Positions 58,066-63,987 of a stretch of DNA of 64,000 nt are shown one piece after another. The notes below the pieces were generated by a model. The model worked only from the letters and a program-made list of their open reading frames with translations. It was not told the origin of the DNA and ran no database searches. The translations under genes were made by a program, and so were the position numbers. Within the stretch, counting starts at the first letter, position 1. Each line of letters begins with the position of its first letter. Origin of the DNA: Chryseobacterium sp. C-71 (GTDB taxonomy: Bacteria; Bacteroidota; Bacteroidia; Flavobacteriales; Weeksellaceae); assembly GCF_020911865.1 (NCBI RefSeq), contig NZ_CP087131.1, positions 4,092,001 through 4,156,000 of the forward strand, written 5' to 3'.

Positions 58066-58950
58066 ATGGTGATTTCACGAAAAATTAAGATCAGGCTGAA
58101 TGTACTTTTTGCTACTGCTGCAATTCTCCTAATTGTATCAGGAATTCTTTATAATTTGGGTTATCTGGAAGAACTTCAGATGATTTTAGCCAAAGATAAT
58201 TACATTTTTTACTGGATGCTTTTAGTAGGGGTTTTAGCAGAAATCGTCGCAGGATCAATGGGAATGGGGTATGGTGTAATCTGTACGACCACACTTCTTT
58301 TTCTGAATATTCCGCCACATATTGTGAGTGCAAGCATCCATTCCGCAGAAAGTTTTACGACCGCAGCCGGAAGCATCAGTCATATTAGACTTAAAAATGT
58401 GAGTAAAAGTCTGGTAAAAAGATTGGCAATTCCTGCAGTGATCGGTGCGATTATCGGTGCATTATGTCTCACTTATGTCGGAGAATATTATTCTAAAATT
58501 ACAAAAACGGTTATCGCTTTTTATACTTTGTATCTTGGTTTTCAGATTTTATCGAATGCTTTTAGACCAAAACAGAATAAAGCTTTGAAAAGAAAGACCA
58601 ACCTTACAAGGCTCGGCGTTATTGGAGGGTTTATAGATTCTTTTGCCGGTGGTGGCTGGGGACCATTAGTAACCGGAACTTTAATTAAAAATTCTTTTAC
58701 TCCGAGATTTGCTGTGGGAAGTTCAACGGTTGCGAAATTTATTTTAACGATCACTGCAGCAATCACTTTTTTCTTTACATTAGGAATTCAGCACTGGAAT
58801 ATTATTCTCGGTCTCTTGTTTGGAGGAATCATCACGGCGCCCTTTTCGGCAATGCTAACCGCAAGACTTCCCGTGAACAAAATGTTTATCATCATCGGAA
58901 GTCTGGTGATTATCATGAGTTCAGTTACCATTTACAAATCTATCTTTTAA
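58066..58950 (+). CDS. Sulfite exporter TauE/SafE family protein
   Basis: A 294-residue inner-membrane protein with about eight helices and the family motifs G-S-M-G-M-G-Y-G near residue 64 and G-G-F-I-D-S-F-A-G-G-G-W-G-P near 186-199. Members move sulfite, sulfoacetate or other small anions. Its start overlaps the end of cysN by position (one base gap), so it is translated with the cys genes; a role in moving sulfate into the cell or sulfite out is likely. A full sulfate permease (CysP or ABC type) is absent from this cluster, so import is the more attractive idea, but that is inference. Confidence 0.88.
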   Translation: MVISRKIKIRLNVLFATAAILLIVSGILYNLGYLEELQMILAKDNYIFYWMLLVGVLAEIVAGSMGMGYGVICTTTLLFLNIPPHIVSASIHSAESFTTAAGSISHIRLKNVSKSLVKRLAIPAVIGAIIGALCLTYVGEYYSKITKTVIAFYTLYLGFQILSNAFRPKQNKALKRKTNLTRLGVIGGFIDSFAGGGWGPLVTGTLIKNSFTPRFAVGSSTVAKFILTITAAITFFFTLGIQHWNIILGLLFGGIITAPFSAMLTARLPVNKMFIIIGSLVIIMSSVTIYKSIF

Positions 58951-59034
58951 ACATTAAATTTTGTGATAAATTTAGGACAGGAATGATGAAATCAATTTTA
59001 AAATTATTTTACATTTACAGCCTAAAATTAACAC

Positions 59035-59325
59035 ATGAATTTACATATAGTTGCACTTTTCAAGTTCAATGAAAATTATCTGATGGAAGCCGTTGAGCTT
59101 TTTCAGAAGCTGGTGAGAGAAACAAGAAAGGAAGAAGGATGTCTGCAGTACGAATTGATTGAAGATAATGAGCAAAAAGGAACTTTTTTCCTGATTGAGT
59201 TATGGGAAAGCGCAGAACATCACAACCGCCACAACGGAACCGATCATCTTTTTGAATTCAGAAAAAATACTTCAAAAATTTTAACCGAAACCGCACAGGT
59301 TTATAAAGGTTTTAAGATTTATTAA
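59035..59325 (+). CDS. Antibiotic biosynthesis monooxygenase (ABM) domain protein, putative quinol monooxygenase
   Basis: A 96-residue dimeric alpha/beta barrel of the ABM/YgiN family. Typical features are V-A-L-F-K-F near residue 6, E-E-G-C-L-Q-Y-E-L near 34-42, and F-F-L-I-E-L-W-E-S near 51, where the Trp lines the active site. Family members oxidise quinols or break down small aromatics without cofactors. It follows the TauE-type gene by 84 bp and may be the last gene of the cys transcript, though a functional link is not obvious. The stop codon is followed immediately by a heptamer array. Confidence 0.82.
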   Translation: MNLHIVALFKFNENYLMEAVELFQKLVRETRKEEGCLQYELIEDNEQKGTFFLIELWESAEHHNRHNGTDHLFEFRKNTSKILTETAQVYKGFKIY

Positions 59326-59329
59326 TTTT

Positions 59330-59387
59330 GGCTAATGGCTAATGGCTAATGGCTAATGGCTAATGGCTAATGGCTAATGGCTAATGG
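59330..59387 (+). repeat. Perfect heptanucleotide repeat, 8 x GGCTAAT
   Basis: Eight exact copies of GGCTAAT from 59330 to 59385 plus GG. It starts five bases after the stop codon of the monooxygenase gene. Copy number should vary between strains through slippage. Confidence 0.95.
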
Positions 59388-59389
59388 TA

Positions 59390-59515
59390 TAAAAATGCAA
59401 AGGCAGTTTCATCATTCTTGAAACTGCCTTTTTATAGAAAAAATAGAAAGTATTAGATTATCATTTTAGATTAGTTAAAATAGAGAATATTCTTTTTTTG
59501 GTTATCTAAAATTAC
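59390..59515 (-). ncRNA. Candidate small RNA under a Fur-like operator
   Basis: The stretch has no gene of its own, yet on the minus strand it has a TATTTTTG box (59527-59520), a dyad operator six bases further upstream and, at its end, a perfect 13-bp terminator hairpin followed by GCATTTTT. The transcript would run about 125 bases. It would contain a 9-bp stem (ATTTTAGAT with ATCTAAAAT, 59504-59512 and 59463-59471) enclosing an AGAATATTCT palindrome. The only short frame (ATG-ATA-ATC-stop) is too small to matter. The alternative is that this is a relic of a duplicated promoter with no product. No known RNA family was recognised. Confidence 0.4.
59399..59433. terminator. Bidirectional terminator hairpin
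   Basis: AAAGGCAGTTTCA (59399-59411) pairs perfectly with TGAAACTGCCTTT (59419-59431); T-rich on both exits. It serves the monooxygenase gene on the plus strand and the candidate small RNA on the minus strand. Confidence 0.85.
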
Positions 59516-59519
59516 TCTA

Positions 59520-59554
59520 CAAAAATAAATAATTATTTTTAATTATTCTAAATA
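59520..59554 (-). promoter_or_regulatory. Fur-like operator plus -7 box, copy 1
   Basis: Half-sites TATTTTTAAT and ATTCTAAATA (59534-59554, one base between) lie six bases from TATTTTTG read on the minus strand (59527-59520). It is nearly identical to copy 2 and points into the candidate small RNA. Confidence 0.6.
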
Positions 59555-59605
59555 AAATTGATGTTTTTAATCTTTTTAGAGTACTGTAAACTTTGTCGAT
59601 AGCCT

Positions 59606-59643
59606 ATTAAAATAAAAAGGCTGACTACAATTTGTAATCAGCC
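59606..59643 (-). terminator. Terminator of the T9SS secreted-protein gene
   Basis: On the minus strand GGCTGATTAC pairs with GTAGTCAGCC (one T-G pair) around AAATT, followed by TTTTTATTTTAA. Confidence 0.8.
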
Positions 59644-59666
59644 CTTATGTTTTTGATGAGATCTTA

Positions 59667-60503
59667 TTATTTTTTAATAAATTTAGATTTTACAGCTTTA
59701 TCATCAGTAGTTTCGATAAAGATATAATAAACTCCGGATTGAAGTGTACTGATATCAAAGTTGGAGCTGCTTACTTTACCAGCAGCAACCTGTTGCCCTG
59801 CAGCAGAGTAAATTTCTACAGTTTTAGGCTGTACTTTACCTACAAACTGAAGTGCTGTATTTTGTGTATTTACAGCAAACTTTATAGCATTATTTTTAGT
59901 GAAAGCATCATCTGAAACAGAAAGATTACCAGCTGTGTTATAAACTATATTATCAATTGCTAAAGCAGCATGGGAAGGTCCCGGTGGAGGAAAAGGAGAA
60001 CCCATCAGCTGAGGATTACGGAATCTAAATACAATATACTGTTTTGAAGATGCAGGTATTGTAAAAGGAGTGATTACAGGAGTATTAGTATCCGAAAAAA
60101 CATAAGTTTGTAAAAGCTGATAAGATGCTGGAACACCTGAATTGGCAGTAAGAGTAGCTGGATCATCTATTAAACCAACTTCGAGAGTGGATCCTGCTGT
60201 TGGAGTAGCTGTAAATGCAAGTTGTTTAGTTCCATCTGGAGCTACAATTTGTGGAGAAATAAGAAATACATCTGTAGCTGCAGACCCACCAGCATAAAAC
60301 TGAAGATATTTATTACCAGTTGCTTGATCGATGTAAACCGTACGATCTACAACTTTTTTATTTGTCCATCCATTCACCATATTATTATAGTTTGCTGGAG
60401 TTGATACAACTGCACTTTCGAAATTTTCATTTAGTGTAGCCAATTGAGCATTTGCTGTAAAAGCTGATAAAACCAACCCTGCAAAAAGTAATCTTATTTT
60501 CAT
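59667..60503 (-). CDS. Secreted protein with T9SS type A sorting domain (choice-of-anchor J-like)
   Basis: A 278-residue exported protein. The signal peptide (MKIRLLFAGLVLSAFTANAQ) is followed by a beta-sandwich of about 170 residues with N-E-N-F-E-S near 27 and A-L-A-I-D-N-I near 185, the pattern of cleaved-adhesin or choice-of-anchor J domains. The C-terminal 75 residues form a type A sorting domain (V-E-I-Y-S-A-A-G-Q-Q-V ... S-G-V-Y-Y-I-F-I) ending S-K-F-I-K-K. The open frame extends to a TTG at 60530, upstream of the likely transcription start, so ATG 60503 is used. It lies divergent from the haem receptor and shares its operator type, so it is probably induced under the same conditions, perhaps iron or haem limitation. 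Confidence 0.82.
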   Translation of the reverse strand: MKIRLLFAGLVLSAFTANAQLATLNENFESAVVSTPANYNNMVNGWTNKKVVDRTVYIDQATGNKYLQFYAGGSAATDVFLISPQIVAPDGTKQLAFTATPTAGSTLEVGLIDDPATLTANSGVPASYQLLQTYVFSDTNTPVITPFTIPASSKQYIVFRFRNPQLMGSPFPPPGPSHAALAIDNIVYNTAGNLSVSDDAFTKNNAIKFAVNTQNTALQFVGKVQPKTVEIYSAAGQQVAAGKVSSSNFDISTLQSGVYYIFIETTDDKAVKSKFIKK

Positions 60504-60527
60504 TTTTTTATTATTTAAATTATGGTG

Positions 60528-60562
60528 CAAAAATAAACAATTGTTTTTAATTGTTCTAAATA
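60528..60562 (-). promoter_or_regulatory. Fur-like operator plus -7 box, copy 2
   Basis: Half-sites TGTTTTTAAT and GTTCTAAATA (60542-60562) lie six bases upstream of TATTTTTG on the minus strand (60535-60528). It controls the T9SS secreted-protein gene; its start point would be near 60522, about 20 bases before the ATG. Confidence 0.65.
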
Positions 60563-60706
60563 AAACTTATATTTTTTATGAATTTTATCAATATTGAATA
60601 ATTAATTTAGAATCTATTAAAATAAATGTCAGTATTTTGGTTATCATTTTCGATTTTTAGTTATCATATTGTGGTTGTAAAATATCATATCGATAAAATA
60701 AATATT

Positions 60707-60741
60707 TATTTTTAATTATTCTAAATAAACTATTATATTTG
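60707..60741 (+). promoter_or_regulatory. Fur-like operator plus -7 box, copy 3
   Basis: Half-sites TATTTTTAAT and ATTCTAAATA (60707-60727) lie six bases upstream of TATATTTG (60734-60741) on the plus strand, in front of the haem receptor gene. No TTG at -33: the dyad occupies that region. Confidence 0.65.
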
Positions 60742-60756
60742 TCAAAATTTGAGTTT

Positions 60757-62859
60757 ATGAAGAAGAAAGTGCTTTCTATTGTGTTATTATCCTCTATATT
60801 TTTAGTGAATGCACAGGAAAAAGATTCTCTCAATCAGAAAAAAATTGAGGAGGTTGTATTGACAGGACAATACACTCAGCAATCCATCAATAAATCAATC
60901 TACAAGGTTGAAGTTATTAATGCAGAGCAGATTAAAAACATGGCAGCAACAACTGTTGCCGAAGTTCTCAATCAATCTCTGAATATACAAATCACTCCAG
61001 ATACAAATTCCGGAAATTCTACAGCCAATATTTTAGGCCTGGGGGGGGCATATGTTAAAATACTGATAGACAACATTCCTGTTGTTGGTGATACAGGTCT
61101 TGGAAGCAATATTGATCTTACAAAACTAAGTCTTAGCAATATCGAAAGAATCGAAATCGTAAAAGGTAGCATGGGTGTAGAATATGGTAATGGAGCATTA
61201 GCCGGCGTTATCAATATCATTACCAAAAAAAGCAGTGCGAAGAAATTAAGCATAAGAGCTGCTTTACAGGAAGAGACGGTAAGAGACGGCTATGACATTA
61301 AGAAGAAAGGTAAAGGAAGACATATTCAGAATATTAATGTAGGCTACAATTTTAATGATAATTGGTTTACAAACATCAGTTTTAATCATAATCAATTTAT
61401 GGGTTATGAAGGTGAAAGTAAGGGCTATAAGTACTTTGAAAGAGATAATAAAAGAGGTTATGAATGGAATCCCAAAGATCAGTACGAGATCAACGGATTG
61501 ATCAGATATTCAAAAAATAAAACTTCACTATTTTATAAAGCTTCGTATCTAAATGAAGAATTTAATTACTACAATCCAAAGGTAGACAGAGTGCCTTTAA
61601 ATGATGGTATAGGAGGTGTGGTTTACAAAAGTTTGGATAGAAACTACAACACCGAACGTTGGCTGCATCAGTTCAATATTCAAACCAATTTAGGACAAAT
61701 TCGTTACGCAGGAGATTTTTCTTATCAGACACAAAATAGAAAATTCTACGATTACAACTATGATATTCCCAACAGAATAAAAGACAATAACTACAATGAG
61801 CAGTCTTATTATGATACTGATGTGATCTATTCCAGAGGGATGTTCAGTAATTTCTTGGATAGTAAAACTTTTGATTTCCAACTTGGCTATGAGTTAGATC
61901 ATACCAATGGTTATGCTGCTCTCATTGCAGGAGAATTTAATGGGAAAGACATTAAAAGGAAAATTTTCACCTACGGTACATTCCTGTCTGCAGAATGGAA
62001 TGTTTCTGATCGATTTTCTTTGCGTCCAGGAGCCAGACTTTCTGTAAGTGATACCTTCGATAATCAATTCAACTATTCGCTTTCTGCAAGATATAAAACT
62101 TCTGAAAATTCAAATTTAAGAGGTGTATTCGGTACTGCAAACCGTTATCCCACCTATGACGAATTGTACACTTATTTTGTAAACGTCAATCACGACATTC
62201 AGGGAAATCCTGATTTGAAACCGGAAAAAGGTTATTCTGCGGGCTTGTTTTGGGATCAGGGTTTTGATATTGGAAACGATTGGAAATTAAATTATAATCT
62301 GGAAGCACTTTATGTAGATCTTAATGATAAGATCGAGAATGTAATGATTGTAAGACCATCTACTTACAAATACATGAATCTAGACAAGTACAGAAGTTTG
62401 TTATTCGGAGCTAATGCCAATATTGTAAAAAATCAGTTTTCATTAGGTGTAAGAACCTCAGTGAATGGAATTTCTGTTTCTAAACAGGAGATGGAAGTAA
62501 GTACTCCAAAAGATTTCCAGTACAACTTTCAGGCAGGTGCAAATGCGGGCTACAAGCTTACTGCTTCGAAAACAGCTTTTAATCTTTACTATAAATATAC
62601 AGGACCGGCAAGAATCTATGTCATCGAGTCTGAAGCTTTTCGTCTTGCAAAAACTGATGGATTTCATATGATGGATTTTATTGTGAGCCAGCCCTTTTGG
62701 AAAGATCGTCTGGAACTTGCAGTTGGGGTGAAAAATATATTTGATGTTACCACAATCAACAGCACCAATAGTACTGCTACAGGACACAATGCGGCAACTG
62801 ACCGTCTGAATTTGTACTATGGCAGAAGCTATTTCGCAAGATTAATGTATCAATTTTAA
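60757..62859 (+). CDS. TonB-dependent receptor, probable haem receptor (HmuR-like)
   Basis: A 700-residue outer-membrane receptor. The signal peptide (MKKKVLSIVLLSSIFLVNAQ) is followed by a plug domain (about 25-160, with E-E-V-V-L-T-G near 31 and V-K-G-S-M-G-V-E-Y-G near 128) and a barrel ending N-L-Y-Y-G-R-S-Y-F-A-R-L-M-Y-Q-F. The barrel holds N-R-Y-P-T-Y-D-E-L-Y and G-N-P-D-L-K-P-E, comparable to the YRAP and NPDL boxes of haem receptors. A HmuY gene follows after 12 bp, which makes haem the likely substrate. A TTG at 60739 precedes the probable transcription start, so ATG 60757 is used. An eight-G tract at 61041-61048 (residues 95-98, in the plug) is unusual in such an AT-rich gene. Confidence 0.88.
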   Translation: MKKKVLSIVLLSSIFLVNAQEKDSLNQKKIEEVVLTGQYTQQSINKSIYKVEVINAEQIKNMAATTVAEVLNQSLNIQITPDTNSGNSTANILGLGGAYVKILIDNIPVVGDTGLGSNIDLTKLSLSNIERIEIVKGSMGVEYGNGALAGVINIITKKSSAKKLSIRAALQEETVRDGYDIKKKGKGRHIQNINVGYNFNDNWFTNISFNHNQFMGYEGESKGYKYFERDNKRGYEWNPKDQYEINGLIRYSKNKTSLFYKASYLNEEFNYYNPKVDRVPLNDGIGGVVYKSLDRNYNTERWLHQFNIQTNLGQIRYAGDFSYQTQNRKFYDYNYDIPNRIKDNNYNEQSYYDTDVIYSRGMFSNFLDSKTFDFQLGYELDHTNGYAALIAGEFNGKDIKRKIFTYGTFLSAEWNVSDRFSLRPGARLSVSDTFDNQFNYSLSARYKTSENSNLRGVFGTANRYPTYDELYTYFVNVNHDIQGNPDLKPEKGYSAGLFWDQGFDIGNDWKLNYNLEALYVDLNDKIENVMIVRPSTYKYMNLDKYRSLLFGANANIVKNQFSLGVRTSVNGISVSKQEMEVSTPKDFQYNFQAGANAGYKLTASKTAFNLYYKYTGPARIYVIESEAFRLAKTDGFHMMDFIVSQPFWKDRLELAVGVKNIFDVTTINSTNSTATGHNAATDRLNLYYGRSYFARLMYQF

Positions 62860-62871
62860 AAATATAATATT

Positions 62872-63987
62872 ATGAAATATTTAAAATTACTTTTCCTTAT
62901 TTTACTTGTTGCGGTGCAGTCTTGTGTTTCAGCAGATGAAGATCCGGTTTCTGTTGCTCCGCTTACGGGGTCTACTGCAGATCCTGAGGTTGGCGGAGCT
63001 ACTCAGCCAAATCAGGTGTGGGTTGATTTAAGCGATACTGATCCTGTAACAGGAAAACCTAAACTTAGCAATACGTTGAGAACAGATTGGGAACTTGGTT
63101 TTTATACGGGTAACGAATTCCGTGTGGTGATCAATGGTTCAATAGGAATGGCAGTTGCTAAAATCCCGAATGCTACAGACATCAATAATGTGAAATCTGC
63201 AGATGTTGCAAGCATGACTGGTGTTGTGAAGATCGGTACATTCACATCAACAAACTTAGCTTATATTGATAATCCTGACGGTAATTTTTTAAACCAGACT
63301 ACGGCAATTGCTGAAATTAAAGTAAATGATTCTGAAAACGGTGTGTACTTGGTCAATATGGGAAATGGCATCCCGACAGGTGCGGTTGCTCCGGGTTCTG
63401 TCTCACTTACAGGTGACCTTAGAGGATGGAAAAAAATTCAGGTCTTAAGAGCGAATAACGGATATCGATTGAGATATGCAGATTTGGATGACAGCCAGTA
63501 CAAAGAAATTACAATCACAAAAAATTCTGAATATAATTTTAATTTCTTCAGTCTTCAAAAAGGTCAGCAGGTCAATATACAACCAAAAAAAGACAATTGG
63601 GATTTTGTTTTTACCACCTTTACCAATGAAGTGTTTTTAGGACCAGGGCAAAGTGCAGGCAGTTACTTCTATGCAGATTTCATCCTTACTAATACAGCAA
63701 ATGGAGTGGGAGTATATCAGGTAGATGTACCACCCGGGCAAACATTAGATATGATCTATAATGATTTTAAACTGAGCAGTATCGATCAGTCTAAATTGAT
63801 TTTCAATGATCACAGAGCGCTCGGTGATAAATGGCGCACAACCACAGGTGCAAATGGCGCACAGACCTACAACAACAGATTTTTTGTTATAAAGGATGCA
63901 GAAGGGTTTTATTTTAAGATAAGATTTAATGCAATGACAAAAAATGGGGTGCGCGGCTATCCTAATTTCGAATTTGAACCTCTATAA
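62872..63987 (+). CDS. HmuY family haem-binding lipoprotein
   Basis: A 371-residue predicted surface lipoprotein. The signal peptide ends V-Q-S-C (Cys18), followed by an acidic Asp/Glu-rich stretch. The rest fits the HmuY family: W-V-D-L-S-D near 51, T-D-W-E-L-G-F-Y near 70 (the family opening), W-D-F-V-F-T-T-F-T near 243 and F-F-V-I-K-D-A-E-G-F-Y-F-K-I-R-F near 341-356. In Porphyromonas HmuY captures haem from host proteins and passes it to HmuR. Two copies of the HmuY fold may be present given the length, longer than P. gingivalis HmuY. It is 12 bp after the receptor gene and so co-transcribed. Confidence 0.88.
   Translation: MKYLKLLFLILLVAVQSCVSADEDPVSVAPLTGSTADPEVGGATQPNQVWVDLSDTDPVTGKPKLSNTLRTDWELGFYTGNEFRVVINGSIGMAVAKIPNATDINNVKSADVASMTGVVKIGTFTSTNLAYIDNPDGNFLNQTTAIAEIKVNDSENGVYLVNMGNGIPTGAVAPGSVSLTGDLRGWKKIQVLRANNGYRLRYADLDDSQYKEITITKNSEYNFNFFSLQKGQQVNIQPKKDNWDFVFTTFTNEVFLGPGQSAGSYFYADFILTNTANGVGVYQVDVPPGQTLDMIYNDFKLSSIDQSKLIFNDHRALGDKWRTTTGANGAQTYNNRFFVIKDAEGFYFKIRFNAMTKNGVRGYPNFEFEPL

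Follow-up and report, generated by a model that had tools for sequence, protein, structure and literature searches.

RyhB-type small RNAs are made from a Fur-repressed promoter, end at a terminator and bring about iron sparing. According to the available passages of PMC9438474, other metal-related small RNAs come from mRNA 3'UTRs: s-SodF of Streptomyces derives from the 3'UTR of a gene under the Fur-family regulator Nur and has sodN as its established target, and RsaC of Staphylococcus aureus (584-1116 nt, cut by RNase III) derives from the 3'UTR of the MntR-controlled metal-uptake operon mntABC, is induced by scarcity of that metal and represses a metal-using enzyme. Sources available in part also describe a 3'UTR class of small RNAs in B. 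thetaiotaomicron and the small RNA Rfp18 in F. psychrophilum. For haem uptake, the closest described system is hmuR/hmuY/RhuH of Riemerella anatipestifer. Its Fur box is given as ATTTAGAATTATTCTAAAT and the hmuR box as ATTTAAAATTATTCTAAAT in the accessible parts of PMC5609570, where purified Fur binds DNA of the hmuR promoter and the Fur-regulated genes include hmuY and hmuR. A single promoter region with one Fur box serves both rhuR and the divergent gene of a secreted protein, RhuH (PMC11967795, in part), and a later Riemerella paper quotes the E. coli-type Fur consensus instead (PMC7976709, in part). The passages at hand from PMC5609570 and PMC11967795 name no small RNA.

We analysed a haem-uptake locus of Chryseobacterium sp. 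C-71 in a stretch of 64,000 nucleotides of contig NZ_CP087131.1 (the window). As in Riemerella, a near-identical 19-bp palindrome stands before the hmuR-like gene (PMC5609570, in part) and a secreted-protein gene lies divergent to it, and in many Chryseobacterium loci one Fur box serves divergent promoters. Unlike Riemerella, the window has a separate box for each promoter and a third, orphan unit (Table 1). On our reading, sulfate-assimilation genes also lie upstream of the ABM gene.

Table 1. Features of the haem-uptake locus, in window coordinates.
Feature	Position	Strand	Basis or remark
ABM-domain protein	59035-59325	+	behind TauE-family gene
Candidate small RNA, ~120 nt	59391..59513	-	5' end estimated from promoter box
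Intrinsic terminator hairpin	59399..59431	-	terminator prediction; stem sequence varies between genomes
Conserved 18-nt motif TACTTTCTATTTTTTCTA	59435..59452	-	just before terminator hairpin
Decayed second Fur box	59503..59523	-	TTTGTAGAGTAATTTTAGATA versus TTTGTAGAATAATTCTAAATA in relatives, three differences
TATTTTTG promoter box, copy 1	59520..59527	-	six bases from dyad
Fur-type box copy 1 (orphan operator)	59534..59554	-	exact dyad; in relatives the operator of the ~430-aa gene
Terminator of T9SS-tailed gene	59616..59646	-	terminator prediction
T9SS-tailed secreted protein, 278 aa	59667..60503	-	PF18962; jelly-roll model
TATTTTTG promoter box of T9SS-tailed gene, copy 2	60528..60535	-	six bases from dyad
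Fur-type box copy 2	60542..60562	-	dyad, 2 mismatches
Fur-type box copy 3	60707..60727	+	dyad, 0 mismatches
TATATTTG promoter box of receptor operon, copy 3	60734..60741	+	six bases from dyad
TonB-dependent receptor, hmuR-like	60757..62859	+	PF07715, PF00593
HmuY-family protein	62872..63987	+	PF14064

The 278-residue protein has 14 relatives (39-69% identical). Its structural model (mean pLDDT 74.4) resembles CBM4 modules and Lys-gingipain cleaved adhesin domains in the PDB at low TM-scores (0.28-0.39 by query), and the modelled protein may bind haem or haemoglobin. Homology to RhuH was considered and dropped, the single PDB chain matched being a piece of Endonuclease I at E 0.1; the name RhuH is absent from the 50 fold rows listed for the model. 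In one relative (G095; L301 3648-5054) a 432-aa T9SS gene occupies the position of the 278-type gene, as the immediate divergent neighbour of the receptor gene.

The three 21-bp dyads described in an earlier note on this DNA are real, with 0.02 expected and none of 100 shuffles reaching three, and a TAnnTTTG box does lie exactly six bases from each of them. The AATTATT repeat with a ten-base period, also described for the unit, is exact in copy 1 only; copy 2 has AATTGTT twice and the first unit of copy 3 is ATTTATT. Cut to 19 bp, copies 1 and 3 are two positions off the Riemerella hmuR box. The dyads have the form of the Weeksellaceae Fur-operator palindrome (19-21 bp, ATTTAGAATNATTCTAAAT) and lie over promoters of iron or haem genes, and the genome encodes three Fur-family proteins (PF01475; E 4.8e-21, 9.4e-11 and 1.4e-6), Fur among them, the best match lying in a 158-aa ORF. 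From their sequences, Fur-type operators over the haem-uptake promoters are well supported and Fur control of the window's dyads, although predicted, is very likely; copies 2 and 3 would be operators on the promoters of the T9SS-tailed gene and of hmuR-hmuY, respectively. Fur control of hmu genes is already known in the family, and the operator result is sound and expected; from it we infer Fur binding and an iron response at this locus.

Thus far the earlier view of Fur-like operators on haem-uptake promoters holds, with a box of the Riemerella Fur type. What lacks support is the fixed spacing as the mark of a regulon and the limitation of that regulon to these copies. At the locus in relatives the exact six-base spacing is kept in 259 of 287 full boxes (152 genomes), and 98 of the 287 are flanked on either side by TAnnTTTG at that distance, so that one box serves two divergent promoters. 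Outside the locus, only one (L021) of 20 fetched sites in the window's own genome has it; the spacing is a property of this locus, conserved here and not elsewhere. A search of the same genome with the relaxed dyad (at most 3 mismatches) gave 86 strand-wise matches versus 44 for the reversed control, near-palindromic sites being counted on both strands, and the dyad is therefore not confined to the haem locus. This and our other genome-wide statements come from pattern searches in which the reversed pattern served as control. Sites with at most 2 mismatches precede two TonB receptors (L001 and L015; from boxes L001-L023, Pfam was run on the downstream proteins of L001, L004, L013, L015 and L018). 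Another such site, TATTTATAATGATTATAAATT (L014 1501-1521), lies between the class I Fe-S fumarase gene and a divergent fumC-like gene and may switch between the two fumarases according to iron. In appearance this box is Fur/PerR-like.

Copy 1, in the earlier note, faced an unannotated stretch. There is indeed no protein gene there, but the gene that once followed appears to have been lost, leaving its promoter as an orphan from which a conserved 3' end would still be transcribed. This gives the observation a different meaning. We searched for relatives with 59380-59600 in 59 genomes (the window's own, 35 of the same genus and 23 from other families of the order). Between the promoter and the terminator, at least 28 of the 35 same-genus loci carry a ~430-aa ORF of one type; four of these compared with Pfam all had a T9SS tail above the cut-off and one (L064) had a HmuY domain. 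Against the window's genome the ~430-aa protein gave eight matches, none of them reaching beyond residues 317-434 at its T9SS-tail end, and the gene is therefore lost in this genome. We had initially read the unit as a long-established RNA gene in its own right, and revised this when relatives turned out to have a protein gene separating the promoter from the terminator. Copy 1 would be the Fur operator and promoter, still intact, that served the gene of the ~430-aa secreted, T9SS-tailed protein, and this gene would have been deleted, apparently recently, in the lineage of the window. Many relatives (L057-L091) have a double operator, two Fur boxes 31 bp apart with the second overlapping the TTTG of the promoter box; at the window's copy 1 this arrangement has decayed.

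The 3' end that copy 1 now reads into is marked by an 18-nt motif, TACTTTCTATTTTTTCTA, which among 320 family genomes has an exact copy, always a single one, in 158 of the 173 from the same genus, and also matches exactly in 1 of the 147 from other genera; the window's own genome holds a single exact copy. Eleven of the 15 same-genus genomes lacking the exact motif have a variant at the locus, namely G027 with one extra T and ten of eleven further fetched stretches. Two others (G160 and G165) have no hmuR match at E <= 1e-60, and in G088 and G181 the locus runs off the contig. Column conservation was measured over the 152 of 160 loci that passed a filter for the 12-nt motif core and the G-rich triplet following it (8 were dropped); as the loci were picked by the core, conservation of the core columns is conditioned on that choice. 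The four bases 5' of the core are 0.98-1.00 conserved and the three bases after its T run 0.95, versus a mean of 0.68 at third codon positions of the ABM gene. In an alignment of 54 distinct versions the motif is constant and the terminator stem differs between genomes. Judged by sequence, the conserved segment sits at the 3' end of the predicted mRNA and shares its terminator.

The only closed ATG-started ORF in the candidate RNA of the window has 3 codons, and the RNA folds with an MFE of -26 kcal/mol (z -4.75), the terminator hairpin included. RNAalifold on a MAFFT alignment gave no pairs, which in our opinion reflects hairpins not aligned with one another, and the RNA model built from it, R1, is therefore sequence-only; in other genera R1 gave weak matches (best E 1.1e-5). 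Seven Rfam matches were obtained in 58500-61000, all below the gathering score, and the segment does not belong to the RyhB family by this measure. Just past the terminator, on the ABM side, eight GGCTAAT copies stand head to tail at 59330-59385; G001 and G018 have other short tandem repeats in the equivalent position.

We then counted what precedes the motif. Of the 152 genomes read, two were unmatched, namely G021, whose motif sits on a different contig, and G027, whose motif has seven T, leaving 150 Chryseobacterium loci. In 124 of them the motif comes after an ORF for a secreted protein of 420-448 aa, a class that includes a few long forms of the 278-type, and a Fur box lies at most 160 nt upstream of the ATG in 123 of the 124. 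It follows a 278-type gene in a further 17, each with a box upstream (17/17); in G033, of this class, the distance from stop to motif is 273 nt. Two loci (G172 and G196) have shorter ORFs. The remaining seven (G000, G024, G029, G075, G105, G149 and G162) are orphan forms, in which box and motif are not separated by any ORF of 150 aa. The motif is linked to Fur boxes and is retained where the ORF has been lost, as far as genome sequences can tell.

In six of the seven orphans the box-6-TAnnTTTG arrangement is intact while the leader differs; G162 has TAATTTTA. Their predicted RNAs are 77-198 nt long, with closed ATG-started ORFs of at most 16 codons. The shortest prediction, in G149, folds as only 77 nt, and homology of this locus to a gene-bearing relative picks up right at the promoter box. 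On a tree of ABM sequences (144 rows) the orphan label requires seven changes, a number equalled by shuffled labels, and no more than two of these are forced by branches with strong support; the rows closest to the window, G073 (95%) and G168, are both gene-bearing. From this tree the orphan form appears to have arisen in two to seven events.

Taken together, the short stretch after copy 1 is probably a regulatory small RNA made under iron scarcity. The Fur-controlled unit that remains, ~120 nt, would end in the unpaired 18-nt motif and the intrinsic terminator. In most loci read in the genus the same 3' end would close the mRNA of a protein gene; where the gene is present the RNA would be cut from the mRNA 3'UTR, and where it has been lost the RNA would be a primary transcript. 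Its U-rich motif would act by pairing with A-rich translation starts.

Candidate targets were sought in the own genome by complementarity. The 10-mer complement ATAGAAAGTA is not enriched there (23 copies, the locus itself included, versus 42 for the control), nor is AAAATAGAAA within 12 nt of an ATG (36 versus 39). Thirty of the 36 near-ATG loci were fetched; in ten the ATG opens at least 50 aa, one inside a longer frame. These ten include class I fumarase, RimO, 4-hydroxyphenylpyruvate dioxygenase (HPD) and a 143-aa membrane protein (L326), and one ATAGAAAGTA copy lies just upstream of the ATG of the class I Fe-S fumarase. Across 29 fumarase leader rows (28 genomes, including the window's; the start in G160 was not found and G035 had no match) the complement is 12-13 nt long in eight, the other 21 having 6-8 nt, and class I fumarase was dropped as a general target since the complement is limited to those eight. 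By two measures, 2 and 6 of 400 shuffles were as high as the fumarase leaders.

The L326-type leaders stand out more. Of 138 loci 80 were kept and the nine nearest omitted, leaving 71 loci with 50 distinct leaders, and the null was 400 dinucleotide shuffles (380 distinct). The mean longest complement was 9.82 versus 6.14 (sd 0.98) in the shuffles, none of the 400 being as high. For control leaders the shuffles as high, out of 400, numbered 328 (hmuR), 33 (ABM), 338 (TauE), 103 (T9SS 430), 120 (T9SS 278) and 114 (fumC); the T9SS 278 control set was also high when scored by the share of leaders with a complement of 11 nt or more (8/400). As L326 was picked after the list from the own genome and its leaders are related by descent, this is a lead and not proof; the leader sequences suggest a trans target chosen post hoc. 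The gene itself (L326 1072-1503) encodes a conserved membrane protein called hypothetical or 50S ribosomal protein L27 in most named sources, the latter of which looks like a misannotation, and heme A synthase in two of 120 listed sources; it has no Pfam or NCBIfam family. Hfq was not found in the window's genome, by a search in which a Bacteroides control genome likewise gave no match.

We next compare the candidate with the RNAs introduced above. With the RyhB type it shares a Fur-repressed promoter (predicted here), a terminator and a proposed iron-sparing role, unlike it in having no Rfam match above the gathering score, no Hfq found and a location mostly within an mRNA 3' end. It is like s-SodF in being the 3'UTR RNA of a gene under a Fur-family regulator; the regulator, host gene and sequence are other ones, and whereas s-SodF has an established target the candidate has none (PMC9438474, in part). 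RsaC resembles it as the 3' end of a metal-uptake transcript tied to scarcity of that metal, but is far longer than the ~77-198 nt predicted for the orphans with their short fixed motif (PMC9438474, in part), and, unlike RsaC, the candidate has lost its parent ORF in some species.

These observations could be accounted for in other ways. The motif might be a cis element of the haem mRNA that serves stability, processing or 3'-end protection, perhaps as a protein-binding site, with no role in trans, the orphan being a deletion scar not yet eroded. In its favour, the motif lies behind one of two secreted-protein genes in 141 of 150 loci (124 + 17) and its complement shows no genome-wide enrichment. 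Furthermore, F. psychrophilum makes a processed and more abundant hfpY mRNA (PMC9331221, in part), and the stability of mRNA 3' ends could thus be of importance. However, it is hard to see what a cis element would do once its message is gone, and ORF-less orphan units occur in seven of 150 genomes, six of them with the exact promoter; the motif is also retained behind different parent genes. On balance we consider a purely cis role rather unlikely.

Far less credible is a role of the conserved stretch as a DNA element or within the terminator that serves the convergent plus-strand cysteine/ABM operon. A T run can also follow the hairpin on the plus strand, and ABM is present in 145 of 152 loci, but for plus-strand transcription the motif lies beyond the hairpin, it is the sole exact copy in the genome, and it persists with the haem gene in G013 and G014, which have no ABM gene in the fetched stretch. 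Equally little weight falls, if not slightly less, on another Fur-family regulator of the PerR or Zur type, or something else, reading the dyads, with the unit outside iron control. The genome does encode three Fur-family proteins, and the box between the fumarases has a PerR-like look. Against this, the dyad almost matches the Fur box of Riemerella hmuR, whose promoter DNA was bound by purified Fur, and both hmuY and hmuR appear there among the Fur-regulated genes (PMC5609570, in part). We favour, at a rough probability of 0.6, the reading in which copies 2 and 3 are Fur operators and copy 1 is the Fur unit of a lost gene, now giving a ~120-nt regulatory RNA that acts by pairing; the accumulation of the RNA and its pairing in trans are what we infer. 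The odds seem to us even that this is a Fur-repressed small RNA throughout the genus, with a fixed 18-nt motif for pairing and normally forming the 3'UTR of a secreted-protein mRNA of the haem locus, its RNA function outranking the protein, with deletion of the ORF having left a ~75-200-nt iron-starvation RNA gene in several lineages.

A Fur-controlled small RNA at the haem locus goes unmentioned in the available portions of PMC11967795, PMC5609570, PMC7976709, PMC9723704, PMC9438474, PMC7366714, PMC9331221 and PMC13209784, and we found no conserved RNA ending a Fur-driven haem transcript in the largely non-subscription literature searched. The orphan unit is, to judge from the genomes compared, a well-conserved RNA candidate, apparently undescribed in that literature, for which a trans role is proposed. 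Should it prove to act in trans, a genome with no Hfq found would possess a small RNA that responds to iron, and bacteria without Hfq would have an iron-responsive RNA arm. The orphan loci would then be natural experiments in which a 3'UTR RNA is separable from its ORF, and the passage from mRNA tail to independent RNA gene would be the birth of a small RNA from a dying protein gene, caught in the act.
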